Positions 2,546 to 38,830 of a DNA stretch of 64,000 nt are shown here, one piece after another. Origin of the DNA: a virus; the IMG/VR virus record IMGVR_UViG_3300037245_000806, positions 62,001 through 126,000 of that record; one strand, written 5' to 3'. Positions within the stretch are counted from its first letter, which is position 1; each line of letters begins with the position of its first letter. Under the pieces are notes generated by a model. The model was not told the origin of the DNA. It saw only the letters and a program-made list of their open reading frames with translations, and did not search any database. The translations under genes and the position numbers were made by a program.

Positions 2546-2685
2546 ACCTCATGTATGAACCTTTGAAGAAATGGCACGCCGTCACGGTTCCATTTGCGCA
2601 CCTTGCGCATCCACTTCCGCTGGCGACGGCCCGCGCGCATTCGCTCGATGCCGCTCTCTCGAAGCTGTTCTGTGAGTGACTTCAT
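2524..2685 (-). CDS. Small basic protein, 53 aa
   Basis: An ATG at 2683-2685 overlaps the stop of the 582-residue protein gene (ATGA), giving a 53-codon frame beginning MKSLTEQLRESG. It is rich in Arg/Lys/Trp in the middle (RRQRKWMRKVRKWNRD) and ends at TGA 2524-2526, overlapping the next gene's start. The tight coupling and the absence of any other frame here make it likely real. No family was recognised; the basic patch suggests nucleic-acid or membrane-surface binding. Confidence 0.55.
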   Translation of the reverse strand: MKSLTEQLRESGIERMRAGRRQRKWMRKVRKWNRDGVPFLQRFIHEVCAGKDN

Positions 2686-4430
2686 TCTGAATCCTTCGGG
2701 GTCACGCCAAAGCGCTTGAGCGTAGCAAGGGCCTCCGGGCTCAGTGTGGCCTTGCTCGATATAGACATGGGTTGATGCGCTGGCGGTATGTGTACCCCCA
2801 TGAACGCGTCCGCTTTGAAGCCCATCAATTGCCCGCTGATAATACTCGCAATCGCGGGAGCATGCACGTCCTTGTTCTTGTCCGGTTCTCCGAACACCTT
2901 GATAAGCTCCTCGGTCGTCTTAATGACCTTCGTAGCTTTCAGCGGGAAGACGGTGTTGAAGTCGCTTTCCATCCCCGAGTCGAAATTACCATACGTCTGT
3001 TCCAGCGCCACCCGCAGCTTCGCAGCTATGCGAAACACCATGCGGGCCTTGAACTTTTCGTAGTCCTCCGGTGACGCTGTGTCAAGGTCGTCGAAGTCTG
3101 ACGCTATCTTTGCGTTGATCAAGATGTGCGCGGCGTAAAACGCTGACTTGCTCAGCGTGTCCATAAAGCCGAAGGCCGTATCCATGACGAACTCAGCACA
3201 CGCCACAGCCCACTTCTCACGCTCCATCGCCTCATTGAACACGTCGGGGGGCGTTGCATACGCGAACTCAGGCGACCACGGCACATTAACATAGCCCGGA
3301 GCCAAGTGCTTGAGCCCGACGACCTCGCCCGCCTTGTACCCCTTCGGCTCCACCCCAATCGCGCGCGCCTTCGCAGCGAGCATCGGGAATGACTTGTGTA
3401 CGGCAATCCACCAACTCGCGAGACGATCACGGTAGTCCTCGGCTATCTCCCCGTCGTACCGCTTCGGCACGAACTCAACGAAGTCCTTGAGCGATGTCTC
3501 ACCCAGCGCGTGTACCATCAAGTCATAGTGAACCTGCGCCACCTTACCGGCTGTGTGAACATAGGAGCCACAGCCTGTCAGCAGCGCATCCGGTACCGGC
3601 GTGTTCTTCACCTGATCTTCCAGCAACGACAGTGTTATATGGTCCGTGGTTGCGTCAGCAAGCATGAGGTACGCCTGCTCGGTCGGCGCAACCGTCAGCT
3701 TCGACGTCACCACACCAGCTGCTGCGTCAAGCATCTCCTCGGTGACAAAATCCGAAAGGTGCCCCACGAGCGCTCCCTTGGTGATGGACCCCCCAGACTC
3801 CGTAACAAAATCCGAGATTAGTTCCACGGGAATCTTCAGGGCGTTCGCCACTGCCTGTAGCTGCTTGGCGTTAAAGTGAAGGAAGTTATCCTGACCCTTC
3901 AGCGTGTTGCTGTAAATCTCCTGCGCACCTGCCTTGAGCTTCTCGTGAAAATACGCCTCATCCGCCTTGACGGCCTCGGAACTCGACAGCAGCTTCTTGT
4001 GCTTGCCCTTGGACCAGTGCTTCGCCACATGCTTCTTCCACGCCGCAATCGCCTGCGCCACGTCAGGGTCAAGCTCCGACACGTCGGTTTCCGTGACATG
4101 AACACCGGGCTTGAGGGATAGATTCTTCACCAACTCCGCATTGCACTCGACGTGATGGAAGTCGTCCGCAATCCCCACGCCCGGCGGTAAGTTGGTAGCA
4201 TCAAAGCCGCCACCGAATACACCGTCGAACTCGGGGAAGCCGGTCGGAATCGCTGTTTGGATAATCGCCTTCAGGTCAGCAAGTGAGGCAGGCTCCCCAA
4301 CGCATCCCTTGAGCGCCTGCCCCACCACTTTCTTGACCTTGGTGAGATTCGACTGTACGAACGCCTTGCCGCTGGCCTTCTTGAGCTTGGCCTTGAGACT
4401 CTTCGATGACTTCGGCTTCTTTGGCGGCAC
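2682..4430 (-). CDS. Large hypothetical protein with basic N-terminus and RFG tail, 582 aa
   Basis: A GTG start at 4428-4430 gives a very basic first 40 residues (PPKKPKSSKSLKAKLKKASGK), then a long, mostly helical body without motifs I recognise. The last 25 residues contain TLSPEALATLKRFGVT, the same tail as the two following genes. The size and lack of enzyme motifs suggest a structural or head-internal protein, but this is not shown. It starts a coupled run of four genes (this one, the small basic protein, the zinc-ribbon protein, then the two shorter RFG-tail proteins). Confidence 0.7.
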   Translation of the reverse strand: MPPKKPKSSKSLKAKLKKASGKAFVQSNLTKVKKVVGQALKGCVGEPASLADLKAIIQTAIPTGFPEFDGVFGGGFDATNLPPGVGIADDFHHVECNAELVKNLSLKPGVHVTETDVSELDPDVAQAIAAWKKHVAKHWSKGKHKKLLSSSEAVKADEAYFHEKLKAGAQEIYSNTLKGQDNFLHFNAKQLQAVANALKIPVELISDFVTESGGSITKGALVGHLSDFVTEEMLDAAAGVVTSKLTVAPTEQAYLMLADATTDHITLSLLEDQVKNTPVPDALLTGCGSYVHTAGKVAQVHYDLMVHALGETSLKDFVEFVPKRYDGEIAEDYRDRLASWWIAVHKSFPMLAAKARAIGVEPKGYKAGEVVGLKHLAPGYVNVPWSPEFAYATPPDVFNEAMEREKWAVACAEFVMDTAFGFMDTLSKSAFYAAHILINAKIASDFDDLDTASPEDYEKFKARMVFRIAAKLRVALEQTYGNFDSGMESDFNTVFPLKATKVIKTTEELIKVFGEPDKNKDVHAPAIASIISGQLMGFKADAFMGVHIPPAHQPMSISSKATLSPEALATLKRFGVTPKDSE

Positions 4431-7562: not shown

Positions 7563-8225
7563 CTATCGGTGCTGCTTCAGATGTACGTCCACGCGGGCTG
7601 CCGAGAAGCAACCCTCCTCGCAGACAGCACAGTGACCGTGCGCGCCCTTCCACGTCTTCGCGCACCGTGCAAAGCCTTTCGTTCGACTGTCGGCAACGCC
7701 TGCCGGGGCGAGCACGAGTTGGTCGAGGTTGTTGTCCCCGGCGAAGAGCATCGACCAACCAGACTCACGTAGTACAAGCTCCTCACGCGGCGTGGTGGTC
7801 GGGTCAATCGAGGCCATGACCCGGCTATTGCACAGGCGCATGATCTGCATCTCGATCTCAAGCCGCAGCTTCCCGCGCCACGCTCGCGTTGGTATCCAGA
7901 AGAGCGTGTCAGGACAGCGTGACATAATGTCACGGACCTTCCCGACGTCCCGCACGCGCGTCCATATCTCGCCCCGCACTGCGAACCGGAAGCGCTTGAC
8001 GTCGAGGTCACGGATTATCTTGACGATCTCCGAAACTGAACGCCCCTGCCAGAAGGCCTCGTCAAGGACGTCGCGGTCAGGGAGCTTGGGGTTCACGCTG
8101 TAGAACTTCTTGTTGAAGCATCGATGCGAACACCAGCGGGTCGTCCAGAGGCACGTGTCCCGGCCCCGGCTGAATGAGAAGAGCCCCGTGGCTTTGACGA
8201 AGCGGATGGGGTCAGCGGGAGGCAT
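7563..8225 (-). CDS. gp88-like phage protein, 220 aa
   Basis: The ATG at 8223-8225 follows AGG and overlaps the stop of the preceding small gene. N-terminal cysteines C22, C30 and C34, a central TIM-barrel-like alternation, and a C-terminal cluster (CAKTWKGAHGHCAVCEEGCF) match the layout of the phage 'gene product 88' family, whose members have an N-terminal CxxxC region and end in a rubredoxin-like knuckle. That family has been suggested to be metal or radical-SAM-like; the function is unknown. Assignment rests on motif layout only. Confidence 0.5.
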   Translation of the reverse strand: MPPADPIRFVKATGLFSFSRGRDTCLWTTRWCSHRCFNKKFYSVNPKLPDRDVLDEAFWQGRSVSEIVKIIRDLDVKRFRFAVRGEIWTRVRDVGKVRDIMSRCPDTLFWIPTRAWRGKLRLEIEMQIMRLCNSRVMASIDPTTTPREELVLRESGWSMLFAGDNNLDQLVLAPAGVADSRTKGFARCAKTWKGAHGHCAVCEEGCFSAARVDVHLKQHR

Positions 8226-8410: not shown

Positions 8411-8602
8411 TCAGTACGGGCTCTTACACGCCTTCTCATAGAGCCCGTCAATGTACTTCTGCTGCGGCAGGGTCAGGCGGAAGGTCGAGTCCTTTAGCTT
8501 CCGCTCCATGTCGCGCAGGAACTGAATGTTCTGCGCATTGAAGAGACCCTCCCCGATGATCTCAATACACTCTGCAACCTTCTTGGCATTCGAGTCTGGC
8601 AC
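8411..8602 (-). CDS. Hypothetical helical protein, 63 aa
   Basis: GTG start with GGAGG at good distance. The sequence is charged and helical, ending ...QQKYIDGLYEKACKSPY, a pattern common in small phage helper proteins. It lies 20 bp downstream of the DUF3326 gene and is likely in the same transcript. Confidence 0.6.
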   Translation of the reverse strand: MPDSNAKKVAECIEIIGEGLFNAQNIQFLRDMERKLKDSTFRLTLPQQKYIDGLYEKACKSPY

Positions 8603-8622: not shown

Positions 8623-9933
8623 TCAAACGTGGTGCCGAGTCTTCTTGAGTGGTCGCCGAAGCGACTCCATTGAGATACCTTCACGAAGCGCTGCCACAGC
8701 ACCCGCCGCTTCCATGTAGCTGTCCACCTGAATGCACGGCCCCACGAGGTCCGGGCGATTCTGCATCCAGTTGCGGTTCTTCACGAGAATCAACGGAATG
8801 CCCTGCGCGAAACACGCGAGTGTCGGCAGACCGAAGCACGTGTCAGGCATCACAACGCAGTCCACGTCGCTGGCATTGAGCACACCGGGGTCGTGGTATA
8901 TGTGATCGCCCATTGCAATCTGGGGAGCCTTGGCGAGCCCCTTCACAGTACAGTACGTGTAGTCGCCGACCGCTGCTTCAGAAGCCTTCCGAGGATCGAC
9001 GACCCCGTACAGCGCATCGGCTTCTTCCAACGTCGCCATGAGAGGTGCGTGGGCGACAGGCTTCCCGAGGAGCATCGTCATGGTGTGTGTCAACATCGCT
9101 TCGACACCACCCCACGGATTCACCATCTCAGCCGCCACCGTCATGTACGAATGCGCGCCGCCTTCAGGCATCGTAATCGGCGAGGAGATAGCAACCGTGT
9201 CGAAGTCGGACAGGAGTGGCTTGATGTGATCGCAGAGAACCCCAAGACCGTTGACCTCCCCGACCGCCGCACCGCTCTCCGTGTAGTCACTGCGCATCTT
9301 GAAGCCAATGTCCTTCGGGAGCACGAGAATCTCGGCCTCAATGCCGAGGACAGCGCGAGCGGCAGCAACCATGTTCCTACAGATATCAAGCACCCCGCCC
9401 TCCACGCCGCCGTCGAGGACGACCAGCACCTTGTTCGAGCGCACCGGAGTAAGCCCGCACGTCCCCATCAGGAAGCGCGTGAGAATGGAGCCCTCGACGT
9501 AAAGGGCATTCGACGGCATCTCATTGATCGCGGAGGAGTTCACGACGTTCGGATGCAGGATGAGGTTGTCGCAGATACTCCCGAGGAGGCGCGCGGCAGG
9601 CGTAGCGTCACCAGCGTGGCCCCCGACCTCAGCACCCACGCCGGTCGGTACGATCATCACCGCGTTGAAGCTGTTCGCCCTCGCGCCCATGCAGTGCTCG
9701 AACTCGAAGATGGAACTGAGGTGTCGGGGTGTCTCGCCATCATCCGGTGCCAGCGCACTGACGGAGTATTCGTAGCCGTCAACGTGCGGGTGGGAGCGGG
9801 TCACGAAGAAGCGGACAGGAGTACAGTCGCTCCCAACTGCCGCCTGCGCGCTCGCCGCCAACCGTTGCAGGATAGACGCTGAGGCCCTGCCCCACTTGCT
9901 GTCCATATAACTGCTGCACTCAAAGACCTTCAT
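8623..9933 (-). CDS. DUF3326 family protein, 436 aa
   Basis: The middle of the protein carries the signature blocks of DUF3326 as I know them from cyanobacterial, plant and proteobacterial proteins: IVPTGVGAEVGGHAGDATP, then CDNLILHPNVVN, then ALYVEG and LTPVRSNKVLVVLDGGVE; later VMPDTCFGLPTLACFAQ and the IPLILVKN end. An N-terminal extension of about 90 residues precedes them. The biochemical role of the family is unknown. It is a cellular-type gene in a phage, flanked by small phage genes and in the same orientation, so it has probably been acquired and retained. ATG start at 9931-9933. Confidence 0.75.
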   Translation of the reverse strand: MKVFECSSYMDSKWGRASASILQRLAASAQAAVGSDCTPVRFFVTRSHPHVDGYEYSVSALAPDDGETPRHLSSIFEFEHCMGARANSFNAVMIVPTGVGAEVGGHAGDATPAARLLGSICDNLILHPNVVNSSAINEMPSNALYVEGSILTRFLMGTCGLTPVRSNKVLVVLDGGVEGGVLDICRNMVAAARAVLGIEAEILVLPKDIGFKMRSDYTESGAAVGEVNGLGVLCDHIKPLLSDFDTVAISSPITMPEGGAHSYMTVAAEMVNPWGGVEAMLTHTMTMLLGKPVAHAPLMATLEEADALYGVVDPRKASEAAVGDYTYCTVKGLAKAPQIAMGDHIYHDPGVLNASDVDCVVMPDTCFGLPTLACFAQGIPLILVKNRNWMQNRPDLVGPCIQVDSYMEAAGAVAALREGISMESLRRPLKKTRHHV

Positions 9934-9944
9934 CCTGCCCCCTG

Positions 9945-10124
9945 TCAGCTTAGCTTTCCGTGCTTACGTAGTTCCTCGCGGGCTTCCTCGAAGTCCACCT
10001 TGCGATGCGCCTTGCACACCCAGAAGCGCCAATCCCAGCCGAGCAACCCTGTGAGGAACCAGCTGAGCCAGTGCATCTTGGGGCTCTTCTTCTTGCAGCC
10101 GTGGAACCAGCACTTGATCTTCAT
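9945..10124 (-). CDS. Small Trp-rich protein, 59 aa
   Basis: ATG at 10122-10124 after GGAGGCCTG. Begins MKIKCWFHGCKKKSP with two Cys and a His that could bind zinc, then a tryptophan-rich hydrophobic stretch (WLSWFLTGLLGWDWRFWVC) and a charged helical tail. Possibly membrane-surface associated. Related in style, not clearly in sequence, to the protein at 44859-45179. Confidence 0.6.
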   Translation of the reverse strand: MKIKCWFHGCKKKSPKMHWLSWFLTGLLGWDWRFWVCKAHRKVDFEEAREELRKHGKLS

Positions 10125-10802: not shown

Positions 10803-11798
10803 TTATTCTGCTTCCCATCCCTGAGCCTCTAGGAGCACTCCTATGGCAGGCGGCTTGTGGCTTGCAGGCTTAATCCACTTGCCGTCATTTCGGCGATAAC
10901 CCGAGCGGAACTCGACGTCACAGTCCTGACAATGACGATCACCCGGCACTTTTCCGCCCCCGACAAATGGCCCACCCGGCTTACCGCACTCCGGGCAGTG
11001 ATGCTCGAACTTGGCGAGGTTGTTCTTGTCCACCTCCTGTAGTATCGCCACGTCGGTGATGCCGCAGGCGATGAGCATGCCCGCGTTGACCACGCTTATG
11101 TCAGCGAAGCCGTCAACGATGGCTTCAAGGTCCGGGCGGATGATGGAAGGCACGATCTCAACGGTGTCCTTGTTCACCTCCACCATCTCACCGTTCGATG
11201 AGCGCACCCGCACGCACGTGCCGAGCGCCAGCGTGGTCTCTAGCACTTCCTCGACCGAGAGCTTGGCCCTGAGGACGCGCGTCTCCTCGTCGGGGACGCA
11301 GGGCTTGTCAGGTGTGTCCTGATTCGCGTGCTCCATGAACTTCTTGACGCGGTCGTAGTGCGGAGTCGTCTTCGACTGAGGAGCGAGCAACCACGCGCAA
11401 CTGCGCATGGCCTCTTCGACCTCGATCTCCTGCACGATCATCTCGTCAGGCGCGCAGGTGAGCTTACCGTCCCACATGTTCAGCACATTCAAGACCGGGT
11501 TCAGGTCATCGCTGACCGGCTCGATCTTCTTGCCAGCGGTGTGCGGCTCCGCACCCGCAACGTTGTAGAAGTATGCTCCGACAGACAACTCATCGAAGCG
11601 ACACGTCGGCTTCCCGCGACTCGGGAAGTGCTCCTTTACCTCATCCACGGCGTCCGTCCTTCCTTGTTTGAATTGGCTGTCCCACTTGCGGCGGTCTTCC
11701 TCGCTAAGCCCGTAGTAGAAGCTCCCGATACCGCGAACGATTTCTTCCGTCTCTATGTCAAAGCACTTTTGCCGAAGCGCCTCTGCAAAGTCTTTCAT
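10803..11798 (-). CDS. MazG-like NTP pyrophosphohydrolase, 331 aa
   Basis: The second half shows the phage MazG/phosphoribosyl-ATP pyrophosphohydrolase-like pattern: AKLSVEEVLET (ExxE-type metal ligands), then DGFADISVVNAG (metal-binding Asp), NNLAKF, and the ending DGKWIKPASHKPP typical of phage members. A zinc-ribbon insert (CPECGKPGG...CQDCDVEF) lies just before that end. The first 150 residues are an extra domain without recognised motifs. Members hydrolyse nucleoside triphosphates to monophosphate and PPi, affecting nucleotide pools or modified-nucleotide synthesis. The start is the ATG at 11796-11798 after GGAGG. Confidence 0.75.
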   Translation of the reverse strand: MKDFAEALRQKCFDIETEEIVRGIGSFYYGLSEEDRRKWDSQFKQGRTDAVDEVKEHFPSRGKPTCRFDELSVGAYFYNVAGAEPHTAGKKIEPVSDDLNPVLNVLNMWDGKLTCAPDEMIVQEIEVEEAMRSCAWLLAPQSKTTPHYDRVKKFMEHANQDTPDKPCVPDEETRVLRAKLSVEEVLETTLALGTCVRVRSSNGEMVEVNKDTVEIVPSIIRPDLEAIVDGFADISVVNAGMLIACGITDVAILQEVDKNNLAKFEHHCPECGKPGGPFVGGGKVPGDRHCQDCDVEFRSGYRRNDGKWIKPASHKPPAIGVLLEAQGWEAE

Positions 11799-32584: not shown

Positions 32585-35500
32585 TTACTCGTCAAGTGCC
32601 GGGTCGGCTGCCTCGATCTCCTCTTCCGTCGCAGGTCTGACCTCTCCCGTTGGTGACACAACGTCACTGCCGCACTCGACGCACTTCGCGACGGTAGTCA
32701 GATTGAGGAATGCAATCGATGCACTTGAGCAATGCTCGCACCGAACCTCAGCCATGATGGGGCCGACGTCCGCGCACTCCTCTTTGCCTAGCCCGAGCAT
32801 GTTCTTGAACACTGCGGTGACAAGCTTGTAGTAACGCGAGCCATCACCACCCTCATCCTTGGACTTCTTGATATCCGGGTACTGCTTGTTGACCGCAGCC
32901 TGCGCCTTGCCCCACAGCTTGATCGCTTCATTCGCTGTCTTGCCCGCCTTGCGTGCGAGCGCCTTCATGTGCGTGGGCTCTTTCACCTTGCCCGCGCCGG
33001 GATAGGTCGTGGAAAGCTGGGCTTCGGTCACGCCCTCGACGGCTTCACCCAACGCCTTGAGCACCTTCGTGAGATGCCACAGGCCGATCTTGATATTGGA
33101 CGCGGAGACGAACGTGTCACGTAGTGTTTTCCCGTCACCCTTGGCCGCAGCATCGAACTTATTCACGAGCGCGACAGGGAGCGACCTCGTGAACGTGAAC
33201 ACGAGACGACCCTTACTGTCCACGACCCACTTGTCCCACGCGACGTTGTTCTTCTTGAGCCACCCGATCATCTTGTTGATGACCTTCTTGGCAGCCGGGT
33301 GCTTGTCCAAGTCGTCCTGCGTGTAGCCCTTGTCAGCTTCGTCCACATCTTCCTTGACCGTGAAGCCCTTGCCCTTCTTGAGGCCGTGCTTGGCGAGCGC
33401 TGGCAGCAGGTACTTCATGTGCTTCTGCTGGACGATCACGTAGTGGGTTCCGTCCGTGTCCTTCCGCATCCCGCTCGCTGTCTGCGAACTGATGACCGCA
33501 GCGATGTCGTCGGCCTTCTGCTTCGAGAGCTTGCCGAACTCCAAGGTCACCGCAGCCTCATCGAGGTCTTCCGTCTTGATATCCTTCGCACGATCCGCCA
33601 GCCCCTTGGCACCCTTGAGCGTAGGGTGAGAGCCGATGTCCTTGATGACCTTCTTGCCCTTCAGGATGACAACCCCGAACTGGTCCTGATGCGGCACCGG
33701 CTTGGGGTATCGCAGGAACACAACGCCGCCGCCTGTCTTCGCCCGGTACACGATCTTCTTGCCGGGGGCGTAGTCCTCTTCGAGGTCTTCGGACTCGGCA
33801 ACCTTCTTGATCACCGTGGCAGCCTTACGTGCGTTGTCGAACTTCTGGCCCTTCGCTTCGAGTTCGCCCTGCTTGCCACCCACCCACGCCTTGCCCGTCC
33901 ACACCTCGCGCGGATTGGCAATCGACCCCGACTTCCGGCGCACGAGAATAACTTCAGCGTACCCGGTCGCGGAAAGCTTGAGCGTCATGTACTCGTAGTC
34001 GCCCTTGGTGAACGAGACTTCGTCGAGGCCCGCCGCCTCAAGCTCGTCGCCCCCATCGAAGTCCTCGTCGGTCTTCTTCTTGCTGATCTTATCAATGGTG
34101 ACGATCTTGCCGCCGGGGAACTCAGTGAGCATTATCCGCGCGAGCTTCATGCTCTTCATGTAGAGGGGTTTGCCCGAACCCTTTTGAACGACGGCGTGCG
34201 TGTACCCGCGTGCCTGCAAGATGGCGGCGAGGCGCTTCTCTTGCACGTCCACAACTTCGTCGAGGTCCACGTCTTCCTTGACCACCTTGACGTCTGCCTT
34301 CAGGAACTTGCGCCCGTCTGCCACGACGACAATGTACTTGCCCTCGTCACGTAGTTTCGTCGGGTCCGCAACGCCCTCGCCCTTCTTCCAGACGCCGCCC
34401 TTCGATCCGTCCTTGTTGACCGGGACGGTGCCCCTCGGGTTAGAGATCGAGAAGGTGCCCTTGAAGGTCTTCGCCTCATCGAGGTCTTCCTTGAGCGCCG
34501 GGTCATTCAGGTTCACGACAATCGTGTTGCCACGGAACTGAATCGACTTCTTGTTGGTCTCCGGGTACTCGATGCTGAACGTGCGCATGAAACTGTCCCG
34601 GCGGTCCTCGCTTGGTAGTGTGATGACTGCGGTCTTACCGGAGACCTTCAGCTTGCCCTTGTCGTCCTTCGCCATGATCTTCAGGGAGGCGAGCGCAGCC
34701 TCATCGACAGACTCGTGGGCTTTCTTCTTGCGCCACTTCCAGCCCTTGTTCGCCACCTCGTTGGACTTGTTGAGCTTGGCAGCCTCCTTGGGAGTCATGG
34801 ACTTGAAGACCTTCTTGACGCCGGTCTTCCTGACCGGGTTGTTCTGCGAGTCAACGAGTACGTAGTCTGCTTCGTCGATGCCTTCCCTCGGACCCGTCTT
34901 CTTGGCCTTCGCAATCGGGACAAGGACTTCCTCGTCGCCCTTCTTGGGGCGGGGGTTCGTCACCCTGACCTTGAGCGTGTTGTTGACATCGCTTATCACC
35001 GCACCCTGCATCAGCTTTCCATTGGGCGCAGTCCACGTGATGCGCTGGCCCTTCTTGAACACCTCGTCAAGGCCCTCGGTGGGATTCTTGTTGTAGTCGG
35101 CCCCGAAGACATACCCGTACTTCTTGAGCGCCTTGAGCATCTCCTTGTCCTTGAGGGCTTTCTTGTCACCGCGTCCAGCGGGCGTCATGGACAATACCGA
35201 CAGGCCCATCAACCGCGCGGTCACGACGGCAACCTGCTCGTCGCCCTTAAACACGGGGCGCACGATCACCGAAAACCGATTCGGATACTTCCCTGCCTTA
35301 TCCGTGTGGAAGCCGCCGAGCCCGTAGACGTCCCCGAGCGTCATCACGATGTGTCGGCCAACCTTGCGCGTAAGCTTCCCGTCACTGCCGGGGGTTGGCC
35401 CCTTCTCATCGAGGTCGTCATCGGACTCGTTCTTCTTCTTGTCGGCCACCCCGCGAGCGTAGCCTTTCTTGTATGCCTTGATCCGGGCGCGTGACCAATT

Positions 35501-38500
35501 CTTCTTGTCGAACTCCTTCTTCTCCTGCTCGCCCTTCGTCGCCGCGATGTGCCCGTGCATGAATGAAGCATGAGCCGCATCACCACGGGTGCCACTGCGA
35601 CCGTACTCCTCGATGGCCGCTGCTTCCGCGAGGTCTTCGTAGTCATCCCCATCAATGGACTCTGCAACATAGGTCGCATTGAGGGCCTGAGCCACAACGT
35701 CTTTACCGGACCCCTTCTTGGTGAGCTTCACGTGACGATACATCTGAAGGAGCAGTAGTCCCGCTGAGACCTCAGGCTCCGAGAGCCCCGTGGCCTTCAC
35801 GATGGCCTTGCCAGTGATAGGCTTCTTCGCCTTCTTCACCGCAGCGAGCATCGCCTTCTCACGCTTGTCCAGCGGCGCGCGCTCATCGAGGTCGTCCTCG
35901 GAGACAGTCTTCTTCTTGCACTTCACGCAGTACCCTGTCGCGGCGAGCACCTTGCTGCCGCAGCCCGGACACTTGACGGTCCCCGTAGTGGCCTTCTCAT
36001 CGAGCATGGCTTCGGAGTGCAGGAGCAAGTCCTCCGCATCCTCATCCGCGATGTGCCCCATGTCCTCGCCGTCAATCACGAGCGAGTAGGTATCGTCGTC
36101 CTCCGTAACGATCTCGATCTCGCACTCCTTGACCTTGCGGTCAAGCTGGATCATGTGACCAAGCTTGGCCTCGTCATCGCGGAGCGGCCTGACCCACGTG
36201 CCCTTGCCCTTCACCTTCCACCCGGCGGCGGTCATACCGAGCGCGCGTGAAACAGCGCGGAGAATCGTCTTGATCTGGTTGTCGCCCTCAGCTGCCGGGG
36301 CACCCAACGTGACCTGCGCAGTCTTGCCAACAACCTTGCGCGTTGCGATGGGGTTGTCGGCACCGCGACGAACTGCAACAAGGGCGTCACCCTTGATGCC
36401 GATGGTCCTCGTAGTACGCCCCTTGCCATCGCCGCCGCGCACGAAGTCCGAGATAACTATCTTGGCCTTCATCGGGATGCTATAGCCCTTCACCTCATCG
36501 ACTGACTCGATGATCGAGAGCCCCTCTGCCTTGGCTGCCTTGCGGATTGCGTTGACCCATGTCTGACTCACGTTGCCCTGCGGATCACCGAGCACAATCC
36601 GGTTGCCCTTGCGCGTAGCGAGCGGGTCTTTGCGACCGCGCGAAGGTCCGGTGAGGATGTCGCCCTCGATGTCAAGGTTCTTCGCCTTGACGCCCGAGCC
36701 ATCCTTGCCCTGCACGAAGGCCTTGATCATCTTGCGGTCGCCCGCCTTCAGCTTGTAGCCCATGGACTCCCGTAGTCGTGACACAGTGTTATCATCTTCG
36801 CCGAGGGCGAGGAGACGCATGCGACAGGCGCTTTCGACCGCTACGTCCCGAGTCGCTATAAACTCGTGGCTTCTCCCACTTTTGATGCCTTCAAACAGGC
36901 TCGTAACACAACGTTCGCCCTCCACAACAGTACCATGCTCCTCAACGTACTCCTGAAAGAAGGCTTCAACCATGACGTCAAACTCGTTGGGAAGGTCCGC
37001 ATAGAATTCAACCATCTTCTCAAGAAGGCTATGGACTTCCTGTAGTGTGATCGGAACCCTGTACGCCTGACCGCCAACCTGTACCAACGTCTTCCCATCA
37101 TCCGTACCATCCCTGCGTGCGGTCCATGAAAGGAACTTGGACTGAAAGCCCTCCTCCCCCTCCATGTACAGCGGGCCTTGCTGTAGTTCAGGCTCGAAGC
37201 CCACGCACAGTACCTCACCGGGGTGGATCATCTTGTTCTCGCCTGAGCCCACCACGGGAGCGCCTATAAGATTGTGCGAACCCTCGGGGTCATCCTTACC
37301 CTTGTCTGACTCACTGACATCCTTGCTGAGGCTCTTGAGCATACGCAGGTCTGTTGCCACCGAAGCGTTCTTCTTCTTCTTGCCTGACTTGATATCCTTC
37401 CGCAGCTGCCTGAGGGCTTTCTTCATCCCGTCCGCTGTGGCCCGCACTCCATAGCCCTTGGCGTACTGCTTCAGTTCCCTGCTGTGACCGTAGGCTTCGT
37501 CGATACCTTCGTTGGGGGCCTTCGCGCTGAACTTCTTGACTTCCTTCTTGAGCACGTGTGTCTGGACTCCCGGTTCGAGTTCCACCTTGTACCCGGTCGC
37601 GGTCTTCTTGATAACCGTGACGGTCTTGCCCTTGGCGTACTTCTTGCCCTTGAGCTTCAGGTCCGTAGTGAGCATGTACGCCTCGTCGATAGACTCGAAG
37701 GGCTTCGTGAGTTTCGTCATGCGCGCATACGGGAGCTTGTCCCAATGCGCGTGGGCAGCCTTGACCACTTCAGCCTTCTCCTTCGGATCGCCGTAGTCAC
37801 CGAAGGACATCGCAGCTTTCTTCCACCCTCTCGGGCTCAGCTTCTTCAGGCGCTTCTGAATCTTCTTGACCGTCTTCACCTCGTTGTCGGCGAAGCTCAG
37901 GATCATGAAGGCGACAAGGTCTTTGATGGTACCCTTGTCTGCTTCGTCGAGGTCTTCCACTTTGGGGAACCACAGCCCGCCGTTGCCATACCACCGCACG
38001 CCATTGGCATCCTCAACACAGAGGATACTGTTCTCGGCATCCTCATTGAGCGTGGAGTCGTGCAGGTCGGGGTACAGGAACTGGAACGCATTGTCAGTGA
38101 CCCCACCCTCTTCGCAGATGGCTACGTAGTCTGCCTTGGTCTCGGGGCGCAGGCCCTCGGTCTTCATCGCGGGGTCTTCCTCTTTGGACTTCGCGGTTGC
38201 CTTGGCGAAGCCCGCACGCTTCGGGAAGCATTCGATGATCGTGAAGTCGCTGACCTGACCGGACTCGAAGTCGGTATCGCCAGCGGTGACGAGAGTGTCC
38301 AGCTTGCAGAAACCCCTCACACCTTCGTTGAGCTTCTGAAGAGGCTCGGCAGCAATCTTGCCTTGGAAGATCGCGAGGAACGTAGTGTCCGTTCCTTCGA
38401 GTTGTGTCTCAAGGAACTGCGTGATGAGGTCGCCGCACTTCTCCATGAGGTACGCCTCGAAGAGGATCGCGGCCATGCCCGTGTCGGTGTTGCTGAAGGC

Positions 38501-38830
38501 CGGGCTCTTGTCGGTGAAGTTCTTGGCGAACTCGCGGGCGCTCTGCTTCTCGTCCTGAAACCCGGAGGCGACTTCGAGGATGAGGTCAATGTACTCGTCG
38601 CGGTGTGAGATGCTGCCGGTGATGGTAGCGGGGAGGTCGAGGCTCGACCGGAGCTTGGCAACCTTCTTATAGAATCCGCTGGCCTTCTTCTGGCGAACCG
38701 ATGCCTTCTGCTTGGCACTCAGGCGCTTGGGCTTCCTGAACTTCATGAGCCTGCGGCGCTTCTTGGCCTTGATGCCCTGTAGTCTGCGCTGGGAGGAAGA
38801 CTGCCGACGAACGGTTGCCTCAAATACCAT
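32585..38830 (-). CDS. Giant polyprotein-like protein, 2081 aa
   Basis: ATG at 38828-38830 after GAGAGGGGTAAACG. An N-terminal basic segment and a domain of about 290 residues are followed by about 18 small domains, each bounded by E-[SGD]-[ILV]-D-E-type motifs, for example near residues 292, 378, 440, 773, 940, 977, 1135, 1251, 1315, 1371, 1447, 1518, 1598, 1753 and 1826; the last residues are PALDE. Domains include zinc ribbons, a winged-helix-like module, KOW-like basic modules, two tandem copies of one domain (about 690-770 and 775-860) and a YKKGYARG helix. The motif equals the T4 gp21-type (I/L)xE rule, so I infer a head-internal polyprotein processed during capsid maturation. Confidence 0.65.
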   Translation of the reverse strand: MVFEATVRRQSSSQRRLQGIKAKKRRRLMKFRKPKRLSAKQKASVRQKKASGFYKKVAKLRSSLDLPATITGSISHRDEYIDLILEVASGFQDEKQSAREFAKNFTDKSPAFSNTDTGMAAILFEAYLMEKCGDLITQFLETQLEGTDTTFLAIFQGKIAAEPLQKLNEGVRGFCKLDTLVTAGDTDFESGQVSDFTIIECFPKRAGFAKATAKSKEEDPAMKTEGLRPETKADYVAICEEGGVTDNAFQFLYPDLHDSTLNEDAENSILCVEDANGVRWYGNGGLWFPKVEDLDEADKGTIKDLVAFMILSFADNEVKTVKKIQKRLKKLSPRGWKKAAMSFGDYGDPKEKAEVVKAAHAHWDKLPYARMTKLTKPFESIDEAYMLTTDLKLKGKKYAKGKTVTVIKKTATGYKVELEPGVQTHVLKKEVKKFSAKAPNEGIDEAYGHSRELKQYAKGYGVRATADGMKKALRQLRKDIKSGKKKKNASVATDLRMLKSLSKDVSESDKGKDDPEGSHNLIGAPVVGSGENKMIHPGEVLCVGFEPELQQGPLYMEGEEGFQSKFLSWTARRDGTDDGKTLVQVGGQAYRVPITLQEVHSLLEKMVEFYADLPNEFDVMVEAFFQEYVEEHGTVVEGERCVTSLFEGIKSGRSHEFIATRDVAVESACRMRLLALGEDDNTVSRLRESMGYKLKAGDRKMIKAFVQGKDGSGVKAKNLDIEGDILTGPSRGRKDPLATRKGNRIVLGDPQGNVSQTWVNAIRKAAKAEGLSIIESVDEVKGYSIPMKAKIVISDFVRGGDGKGRTTRTIGIKGDALVAVRRGADNPIATRKVVGKTAQVTLGAPAAEGDNQIKTILRAVSRALGMTAAGWKVKGKGTWVRPLRDDEAKLGHMIQLDRKVKECEIEIVTEDDDTYSLVIDGEDMGHIADEDAEDLLLHSEAMLDEKATTGTVKCPGCGSKVLAATGYCVKCKKKTVSEDDLDERAPLDKREKAMLAAVKKAKKPITGKAIVKATGLSEPEVSAGLLLLQMYRHVKLTKKGSGKDVVAQALNATYVAESIDGDDYEDLAEAAAIEEYGRSGTRGDAAHASFMHGHIAATKGEQEKKEFDKKNWSRARIKAYKKGYARGVADKKKNESDDDLDEKGPTPGSDGKLTRKVGRHIVMTLGDVYGLGGFHTDKAGKYPNRFSVIVRPVFKGDEQVAVVTARLMGLSVLSMTPAGRGDKKALKDKEMLKALKKYGYVFGADYNKNPTEGLDEVFKKGQRITWTAPNGKLMQGAVISDVNNTLKVRVTNPRPKKGDEEVLVPIAKAKKTGPREGIDEADYVLVDSQNNPVRKTGVKKVFKSMTPKEAAKLNKSNEVANKGWKWRKKKAHESVDEAALASLKIMAKDDKGKLKVSGKTAVITLPSEDRRDSFMRTFSIEYPETNKKSIQFRGNTIVVNLNDPALKEDLDEAKTFKGTFSISNPRGTVPVNKDGSKGGVWKKGEGVADPTKLRDEGKYIVVVADGRKFLKADVKVVKEDVDLDEVVDVQEKRLAAILQARGYTHAVVQKGSGKPLYMKSMKLARIMLTEFPGGKIVTIDKISKKKTDEDFDGGDELEAAGLDEVSFTKGDYEYMTLKLSATGYAEVILVRRKSGSIANPREVWTGKAWVGGKQGELEAKGQKFDNARKAATVIKKVAESEDLEEDYAPGKKIVYRAKTGGGVVFLRYPKPVPHQDQFGVVILKGKKVIKDIGSHPTLKGAKGLADRAKDIKTEDLDEAAVTLEFGKLSKQKADDIAAVISSQTASGMRKDTDGTHYVIVQQKHMKYLLPALAKHGLKKGKGFTVKEDVDEADKGYTQDDLDKHPAAKKVINKMIGWLKKNNVAWDKWVVDSKGRLVFTFTRSLPVALVNKFDAAAKGDGKTLRDTFVSASNIKIGLWHLTKVLKALGEAVEGVTEAQLSTTYPGAGKVKEPTHMKALARKAGKTANEAIKLWGKAQAAVNKQYPDIKKSKDEGGDGSRYYKLVTAVFKNMLGLGKEECADVGPIMAEVRCEHCSSASIAFLNLTTVAKCVECGSDVVSPTGEVRPATEEEIEAADPALDE
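36779..36791. promoter_or_regulatory. 13-bp palindrome TGACACAGTGTTA inside the polyprotein gene
   Basis: Exact copy inside the coding region (encoding DDNTVS), about residue 680. With the adjoining GTAGT it repeats the 21 bp found at 28279-28299, which is not explained by protein similarity there. Confidence 0.55.

Follow-up and report, generated by a model that had tools for sequence, protein, structure and literature searches.

A phage genome that carries a gene of the DUF3326 family raises the question of what this protein does there, with which other enzymes it works and whether it tells anything about the host. The window, by which the whole 64,000-nucleotide stretch of DNA analysed here is meant, comprises positions 62001-126000 of the 143,033-base virus record IMGVR_UViG_3300037245_000806. 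From the sequence alone, the original prediction described a full-length DUF3326 gene with its conserved blocks in a phage transcription unit, took it for an auxiliary metabolic gene and supposed that it may hint at host range.

The DUF3326 gene and its phage setting

The gene and its surroundings comprise the following features, given in window coordinates.

7563..8225, minus strand: Gp88-family gene in the same run as the DUF3326 gene (PF17338, 35.6 bits)
8411..8602, minus strand: small downstream gene of 63 aa, a gene call of its own that starts 20 nt past the DUF3326 stop; no PHROG match
8623..9933, minus strand: DUF3326 gene, long form, 436 aa, with an ATG start and 0 internal stops
8656..9666, minus strand: part of the gene matched by PF11805, residues 90-426 (all profile positions, 1-337 of 337)
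9667..9933, minus strand: N-terminal part, residues 1-89, outside the Pfam model; found in cellular long forms and missing in viral short forms
9938..9943, minus strand: Shine-Dalgarno-like AGGGGG, read from the sequence, 4 nt 5' of the DUF3326 ATG
9945..10124, minus strand: small upstream gene of 59 aa, a gene call of its own whose stop lies 11 nt ahead of the DUF3326 start
10803..11798, minus strand: MazG/PRA-PH-like pyrophosphohydrolase gene in the same run as the DUF3326 gene (phrog_671, 62 bits; PF01503, 23.8 bits)

The PF11805 (DUF3326) profile matched the window protein with 262.1 bits (cut-off 25, E 9e-78) over its entire length, and a search of the whole record gave 262.8 bits and a single copy. 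The same profile matched a Synechococcus elongatus protein that served as positive control. The assignment to the family is thus confirmed. The copy is also intact, as had been predicted, with an uninterrupted frame and with all 27 residues that are invariant in an alignment of 137 sequences, in which the window protein is the reference row. No match to the protein was obtained from PHROGs at E <= 1. The N-terminal part was traced in cellular forms by tblastn matches that start at residue 1 in loci such as L059 and L085, and its absence from the viral short forms is seen in the alignment as well.

Proteins of phage type in the record include a portal, a large terminase, a thymidylate kinase, SbcC and a Dda-like helicase. 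Further markers are a Gp20 portal, a Gp23 capsid protein, an S77 prohead protease and a family A DNA polymerase, and ThyX is also encoded by this phage. The record is a genuine phage with a T4-like head. The DUF3326 gene lies in a run of genes that are all on the minus strand, with the MazG-like gene on one side and the Gp88-family gene on the other, and the predicted phage setting therefore holds. The closest terminases among GenBank phages, those of Maribacter phages first, are only 32% identical to that of the window phage and thus give no pointer to its host.

Other genes of the same phage were recorded in passing. A Tad6 match (Thoeris inhibitor family, 95 bits; G000:C1:56147-56440, minus strand, also L201) lies within a 460-aa open frame; as an anti-defence link to DUF3326 it was dropped, being about 14 kb away and beyond the window. 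Within the window, 32585-38830 encodes a 2081-aa protein with no PHROG match at E <= 0.01, and 2682-4430 encodes a 582-aa protein without a clear family.

Distribution and origin of the phage copy

The family had been placed in cyanobacteria, plants and some other bacteria. This range proved too narrow: a scan of one genome per species returned 257 cellular relatives from many bacterial phyla, and an alignment-based scan located DUF3326 in 68 IMG/VR contigs, some of them 240-548 kb long. The best 80 of the 257 cellular relatives were fetched; Planctomycetota, Nitrospirota, Pseudomonadota, Chloroflexota and Omnitrophota are represented among them, together with others. The spread is patchy, with DUF3326 in 2 of 398 Pseudomonadota genomes, one of the two being the centre genome. 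Scanning the viral contigs with the full window protein as query gave no match; the viral DUF3326 contigs were recovered with a conserved-block fragment and then an alignment as query. Four different DUF3326 queries found no match in 50,697 GenBank phage records, and plasmids contained no match to the window protein or to one cellular DUF3326. The viral DUF3326 contigs look genuine. A large terminase (phrog_2) is present in 17 of 50, and portal, capsid, terminase, RecA and ribonucleotide reductase occur among 124 neighbour proteins of viral DUF3326.

Two observations on individual genomes may be added. A Neomarinimicrobiota genome contains both a long-form DUF3326 of the host and a prophage pair of a SpeD-like gene and a short-form DUF3326 (L198 6777-12855), the latter near terminase and portal genes. 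In G056 and G048, the contigs of L182 and L190, the large-terminase matches cross one and two TGA codons, respectively; TGA may be read as an amino acid in these phages, or the terminase genes may be interrupted.

A tree was built from 137 sequences (the window copy, 77 cellular and 59 viral) and 356 columns. Truncated viral copies (L191, L194, L195), one member of each of four near-duplicate pairs and three cellular loci with no clean ORF (L070, L084, L122) were left out. The cellular rows were picked by likeness to the window copy, so that cellular short forms may be missing from the tree, and they include no cyanobacterial copies. One branch (98% SH-aLRT) separates 44 viral short forms, which lack the N-terminal part, from the long forms, namely the window copy, every one of the 77 cellular rows and 15 of the viral ones. 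A single viral clade that includes the window copy was rejected (AU p 0.0009), and more than one transfer thus seems to have brought DUF3326 into viruses.

The window copy stands alone at the base of the long-form side on a branch of length 1.24, its exact place being unsure given this long branch. It looks like an old, separate long-form lineage, but one with no host lineage nearby, cyanobacterial copies being outside the tree. The best identity to it is 51%, in a marine alphaproteobacterial MAG (L063), and the rows separated from it by the shortest paths belong to several bacterial phyla and to viruses. The supposed hint at host range is accordingly not supported. The presence of the family in cyanobacteria, where the Synechococcus elongatus control was matched, would suit a recent capture from which the host, perhaps a cyanobacterium, could be read; given the low top identity and the mixture of phyla and viruses among the nearest rows, in a tree free of cyanobacterial copies, such a capture is hardly credible.

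Decarboxylase genes beside DUF3326

Gene partners of DUF3326 were recounted by tblastn, in the cellular loci within 2.5 kb and on the same strand; clustering of the longest ORFs had under-counted them. Cellular counts cover the best 80 of 257 relatives, ranked by match to the window copy. Viral counts cover 66 of the 68 loci (L130-L195, leaving out L022 and L023), among which four pairs (L144/L145, L160/L161, L164/L190 and L169/L192) are different contigs whose gene calls near DUF3326 are identical or almost so. Profiles served to test family identity in representatives, and for PF02675 on 50 viral contigs; the remaining loci were assigned via clustering or tblastn.

In phages and in bacteria alike, a decarboxylase gene almost always lies next to DUF3326, and this link is new here. 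A SpeD-like pyruvoyl enzyme is the partner in 41 cellular loci and an NspC-like PLP decarboxylase (ornithine/carboxynorspermidine type) in 36; no locus has both, and three have neither, DUF3326 being at a contig edge in two of these. The zero overlap would have a chance of 1e-19 under independence, a figure inflated by relatedness, and at least eight switches between the two partner types are required on the tree. The viral loci comprise 51 with a SpeD-like gene, nine with a phosphatidylserine-decarboxylase (PSD)-like gene, three with a gene of the ornithine-cyclodeaminase family and three (L156, L168 and L193) in which no partner was found. The PSD-like gene is ahead of DUF3326 in L131 and behind DUF3326 in eight contigs of low GC. 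The cyclodeaminase is no decarboxylase; the decarboxylases linked to DUF3326 are of three unrelated families that replace each other. As a control against chance, 50 of the 66 viral contigs (3.76 Mb) were searched: all 36 PF02675 matches were at most 2.4 kb from DUF3326, 31 of them within 100 bp, and no SpeD-like gene was found away from DUF3326 in those contigs.

Three SpeD-like partners tested match PF02675 (48-55 bits), and three of three tested fail the AdoMetDC equivalog TIGR03330 (19-29 bits, cut-off 75.65). Aligned to the AdoMetDC of T. maritima, the SpeD-like partners still have the pyruvoyl serine as well as the catalytic His and Cys (Ser63, His68, Cys83), usually have Thr in place of Glu before the pyruvoyl serine, and have lost WPE. 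PMC10407285 gives a proline as the marker of true AdoMetDC, and the proline lost in the SpeD-like partners is probably this one. The same paper names Gln, Thr, Phe and Tyr as diagnostic of SpeDC; compared by residue type rather than by mapped position, the partners show a conserved Gln and, usually, a Thr ahead of the pyruvoyl serine, with Phe/Tyr close by. Phage homologues of SpeD that act on ornithine or arginine instead of AdoMet have been described (PMC9992855).

Other neighbours are also of polyamine type. A gene of the glutathionylspermidine-synthase family is present in 19 of the 80 cellular loci; an arginase-family gene adjoins DUF3326 in viral L149, and another was located by tblastn near cellular L090. 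These neighbours count for an amine-related function. Along with the glutathionylspermidine-synthase-family gene, DUF350 and DUF1190 genes are near cellular DUF3326 in 16 and 17 loci, respectively, as counted by clustering. Two further neighbours were noted separately: a DUF2828/DUF7788 protein (L157 5708-7090, with relatives in L152 and L154) upstream of the pair of DUF3326 and a PSD-like gene, on the opposite strand, in three low-GC phage contigs, and a protein of about 260-420 aa upstream of the decarboxylase and DUF3326 in L069, L074, L091, L092, L100 and L118, from several bacterial phyla, with no Pfam match in the two tested.

The window record does not follow the rule. Its search with PF02675, PF02784, PF02666, PF02423 and PF01862 gave no match even at E <= 10, the record being possibly incomplete, and no decarboxylase is among 25 of the 31 Pfam families listed for 115 of its proteins. 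With no recognized partner in 143 kb, the window copy is therefore a lone half and an exception to the family rule. It is thus either a half that, although intact, relies on the host or on a gene missed in an incomplete record, or a passenger. As a passenger it would be a gene acquired long ago and retained without a metabolic reason related to decarboxylation. The missing partner and the long branch agree with this, as does the absence of DUF3326 from 11 of 11 portal-related viral records, which are fragments and mostly short; the full-length frame and the retention of every invariant residue despite the long branch speak for selection, and a passenger is distinctly unlikely.

Our preferred reading, to which we give about an even chance, is that the long-form DUF3326 protein of the window is most probably an enzyme whose step directly precedes or follows that of a dedicated amino-acid decarboxylase. 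Together the two would form a short pathway for the synthesis or modification of a polyamine-like amine. The decarboxylases are unrelated yet interchangeable and have the reaction in common rather than the fold; what DUF3326 would need is therefore decarboxylation itself, and the two enzymes would share a substrate or product. Most likely, DUF3326 would use the product of the decarboxylase, or make its substrate, in polyamine-type metabolism. Counted against a step next to a decarboxylase are the partnerless window record and three viral contigs, the cyclodeaminase and a cyanobacterial cluster without a decarboxylase (see below). Neighbouring genes are, besides, indirect evidence, taken on the cellular side from the 80 loci that best match the window copy. 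The two main partners have AdoMet decarboxylase and carboxynorspermidine decarboxylase as their nearest named enzymes, and each of these takes the carboxyl off a 3-amino-3-carboxypropyl group. For this reason the preferred guess, still a rather doubtful one, is that the product of DUF3326 is a conjugate in which an alpha-amino-acid end, e.g. a 3-amino-3-carboxypropyl group, is free, and that the decarboxylase turns this end into an amine. In the reverse order, the decarboxylase would make putrescine or agmatine, which DUF3326 would then use. The window phage, with the DUF3326 half only, would draw on a host decarboxylase or intermediate, or its partner may be outside the 143-kb record or unrecognized. 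Its description as an auxiliary metabolic gene is plausible: the genuine phage genome, the cellular homologues and the neighbours of its relatives, which suggest amine metabolism, favour it, but the usual partner gene is missing in this phage.

The predicted fold of DUF3326 was also considered. Two structure models were obtained (pLDDT 82.7 and 93.7). Foldseek gave no match at E <= 0.001 against the PDB (best 1.3e-3, TM 0.17) or against viral structures, and no useful result came from searching the PDB by sequence with DUF3326. VIA rows with Z 8-10, mainly over residues 166-337, are common flavodoxin-like or periplasmic-binding-like folds, lumazine synthase, type II dehydroquinase, PurE and LarB. 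A glycosyltransferase reading was rejected; most glycosyltransferase-like and UDP-GlcNAc-epimerase-like rows seen with the poorer model did not recur with the better one (for MGD1, Z went down from 10.7 to 8.7). With a high-confidence model and no confident structural relative, the reaction of DUF3326 is not readable from its fold.

Septu, phage SpeD and other known systems

In bacteria, DUF3326 has a repeated link to the Septu genes ptuA and ptuB. Both are upstream and on the same strand in 14 of the 80 cellular loci, with both partner types, and the PADLOC Septu models gave 218 and 207 bits with representative neighbours. The loci are as follows.

L051, L054, L056, L058, L083, L095, L098, L101, L102, L106, L107, L117, L120, L127, same strand as the decarboxylase and DUF3326: PtuA+PtuB loci, from many bacterial phyla

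PtuB is beside the pair in 15 of the 80 loci, a link for which the tree requires 11 changes. Of the genes that flank the window DUF3326 and were scanned with Pfam or PHROGs, none was named PtuA or PtuB. The decarboxylase/DUF3326 pair might belong to the anti-phage immunity of bacteria, with a PtuA-PtuB effector in some loci, the phage copies being counter-defence or mimics. The Septu genes with their model scores, the number of changes on the tree, the patchy spread among Pseudomonadota genomes and the short form carried by many phages all fit this proposal. The PtuA+PtuB pair is absent from 66 of the 80 loci, however, 19 loci have the glutathionylspermidine-synthase-family gene instead, and neither DUF3326 nor either of the decarboxylase partners tested has a PADLOC model; we consider immunity unlikely.

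Phage DNA is known to be hypermodified with amino acids that are then decarboxylated. By analogy, the pair would attach an amine or amino acid to a nucleic acid (phage DNA or tRNA), the decarboxylase would trim it, and PtuB would tell marked from unmarked. That PtuB is an HNH nuclease found beside the pair is in keeping with such a role; no known base-hypermodification gene is beside the pair among the first 25 of the 68 neighbour families, and the window phage, with ThyX and thymidylate kinase, makes ordinary thymidylate, which leaves nucleic-acid modification very unlikely. A broader idea, itself a long shot, is that the joint product of DUF3326 and its interchangeable decarboxylases is a small molecule or mark, derived from an amine, with a part in phage-bacteria conflict. 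Bacteria would couple this product to Septu nucleases and other effectors, and phages with a shortened pyruvoyl version, or with DUF3326 alone as in the window, would mimic, supply or disarm it. Our preferred reading remains an enzyme of amine metabolism coupled to a decarboxylase.

Full-text literature searches, which left most subscription journals and all bioRxiv preprints outside their coverage so that a report elsewhere is possible, returned no mention of PF11805; within the same limits, none mentioned PtuA, PtuB and a decarboxylase together. DUF350, glutathionylspermidine and a decarboxylase did not occur together in the full-text literature searched, and Septu with polyamine and phage gave nothing on topic among the matches listed. 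Auxiliary metabolic gene, S-adenosylmethionine decarboxylase and domain of unknown function led to PMC9992855 alone. DUF3326 itself turned up in two papers of this literature: the one published cluster is the cyanobacterial fed3-DUF650-DUF3326 cluster, with a ferredoxin, DUF650 and no decarboxylase (PMC4284462), and the other mention concerns a potato transcript (PMC13294368).

The larger finding is the conserved link of DUF3326 to interchangeable decarboxylases in phages and bacteria, together with the repeated Septu link in bacteria. A family without known function, from cyanobacteria to plants, thereby gains a testable one, that of a decarboxylase-coupled enzyme. Its minimal two-gene form of about 1.4 kb is carried by many phages; a large set of uncultured phages thus has a polyamine-type gene pair that was found in none of the reference phages or literature searched.

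Among known systems, Septu resembles this module in that PtuA and PtuB adjoin the cellular DUF3326 genes in the 14 loci given above. To our knowledge, neither a decarboxylase nor DUF3326 belongs to Septu as described. NspC (TIGR01047) is the best match of the PLP partner tested, with 298 bits, yet this is under the cut-off of 409, and the usual dehydrogenase partner of NspC was not seen in the recurrent neighbour families of DUF3326. The SpeD-derived ornithine/arginine decarboxylases of phages (PMC9992855, PMC10407285) resemble the SpeD homologue that usually adjoins DUF3326 in viruses, which falls in the same size class and keeps the three catalytic residues. However, the DUF3326-linked SpeD matches only two GenBank records at E <= 1e-3, with 29% identity; the word DUF3326 occurs in neither paper, and the window phage has no SpeD. 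With the DUF3326 family itself (PF11805), the window protein shares all 337 profile positions; it differs in having no PHROG and no GenBank-phage relative, in its location in a phage and in its 89 extra N-terminal residues.
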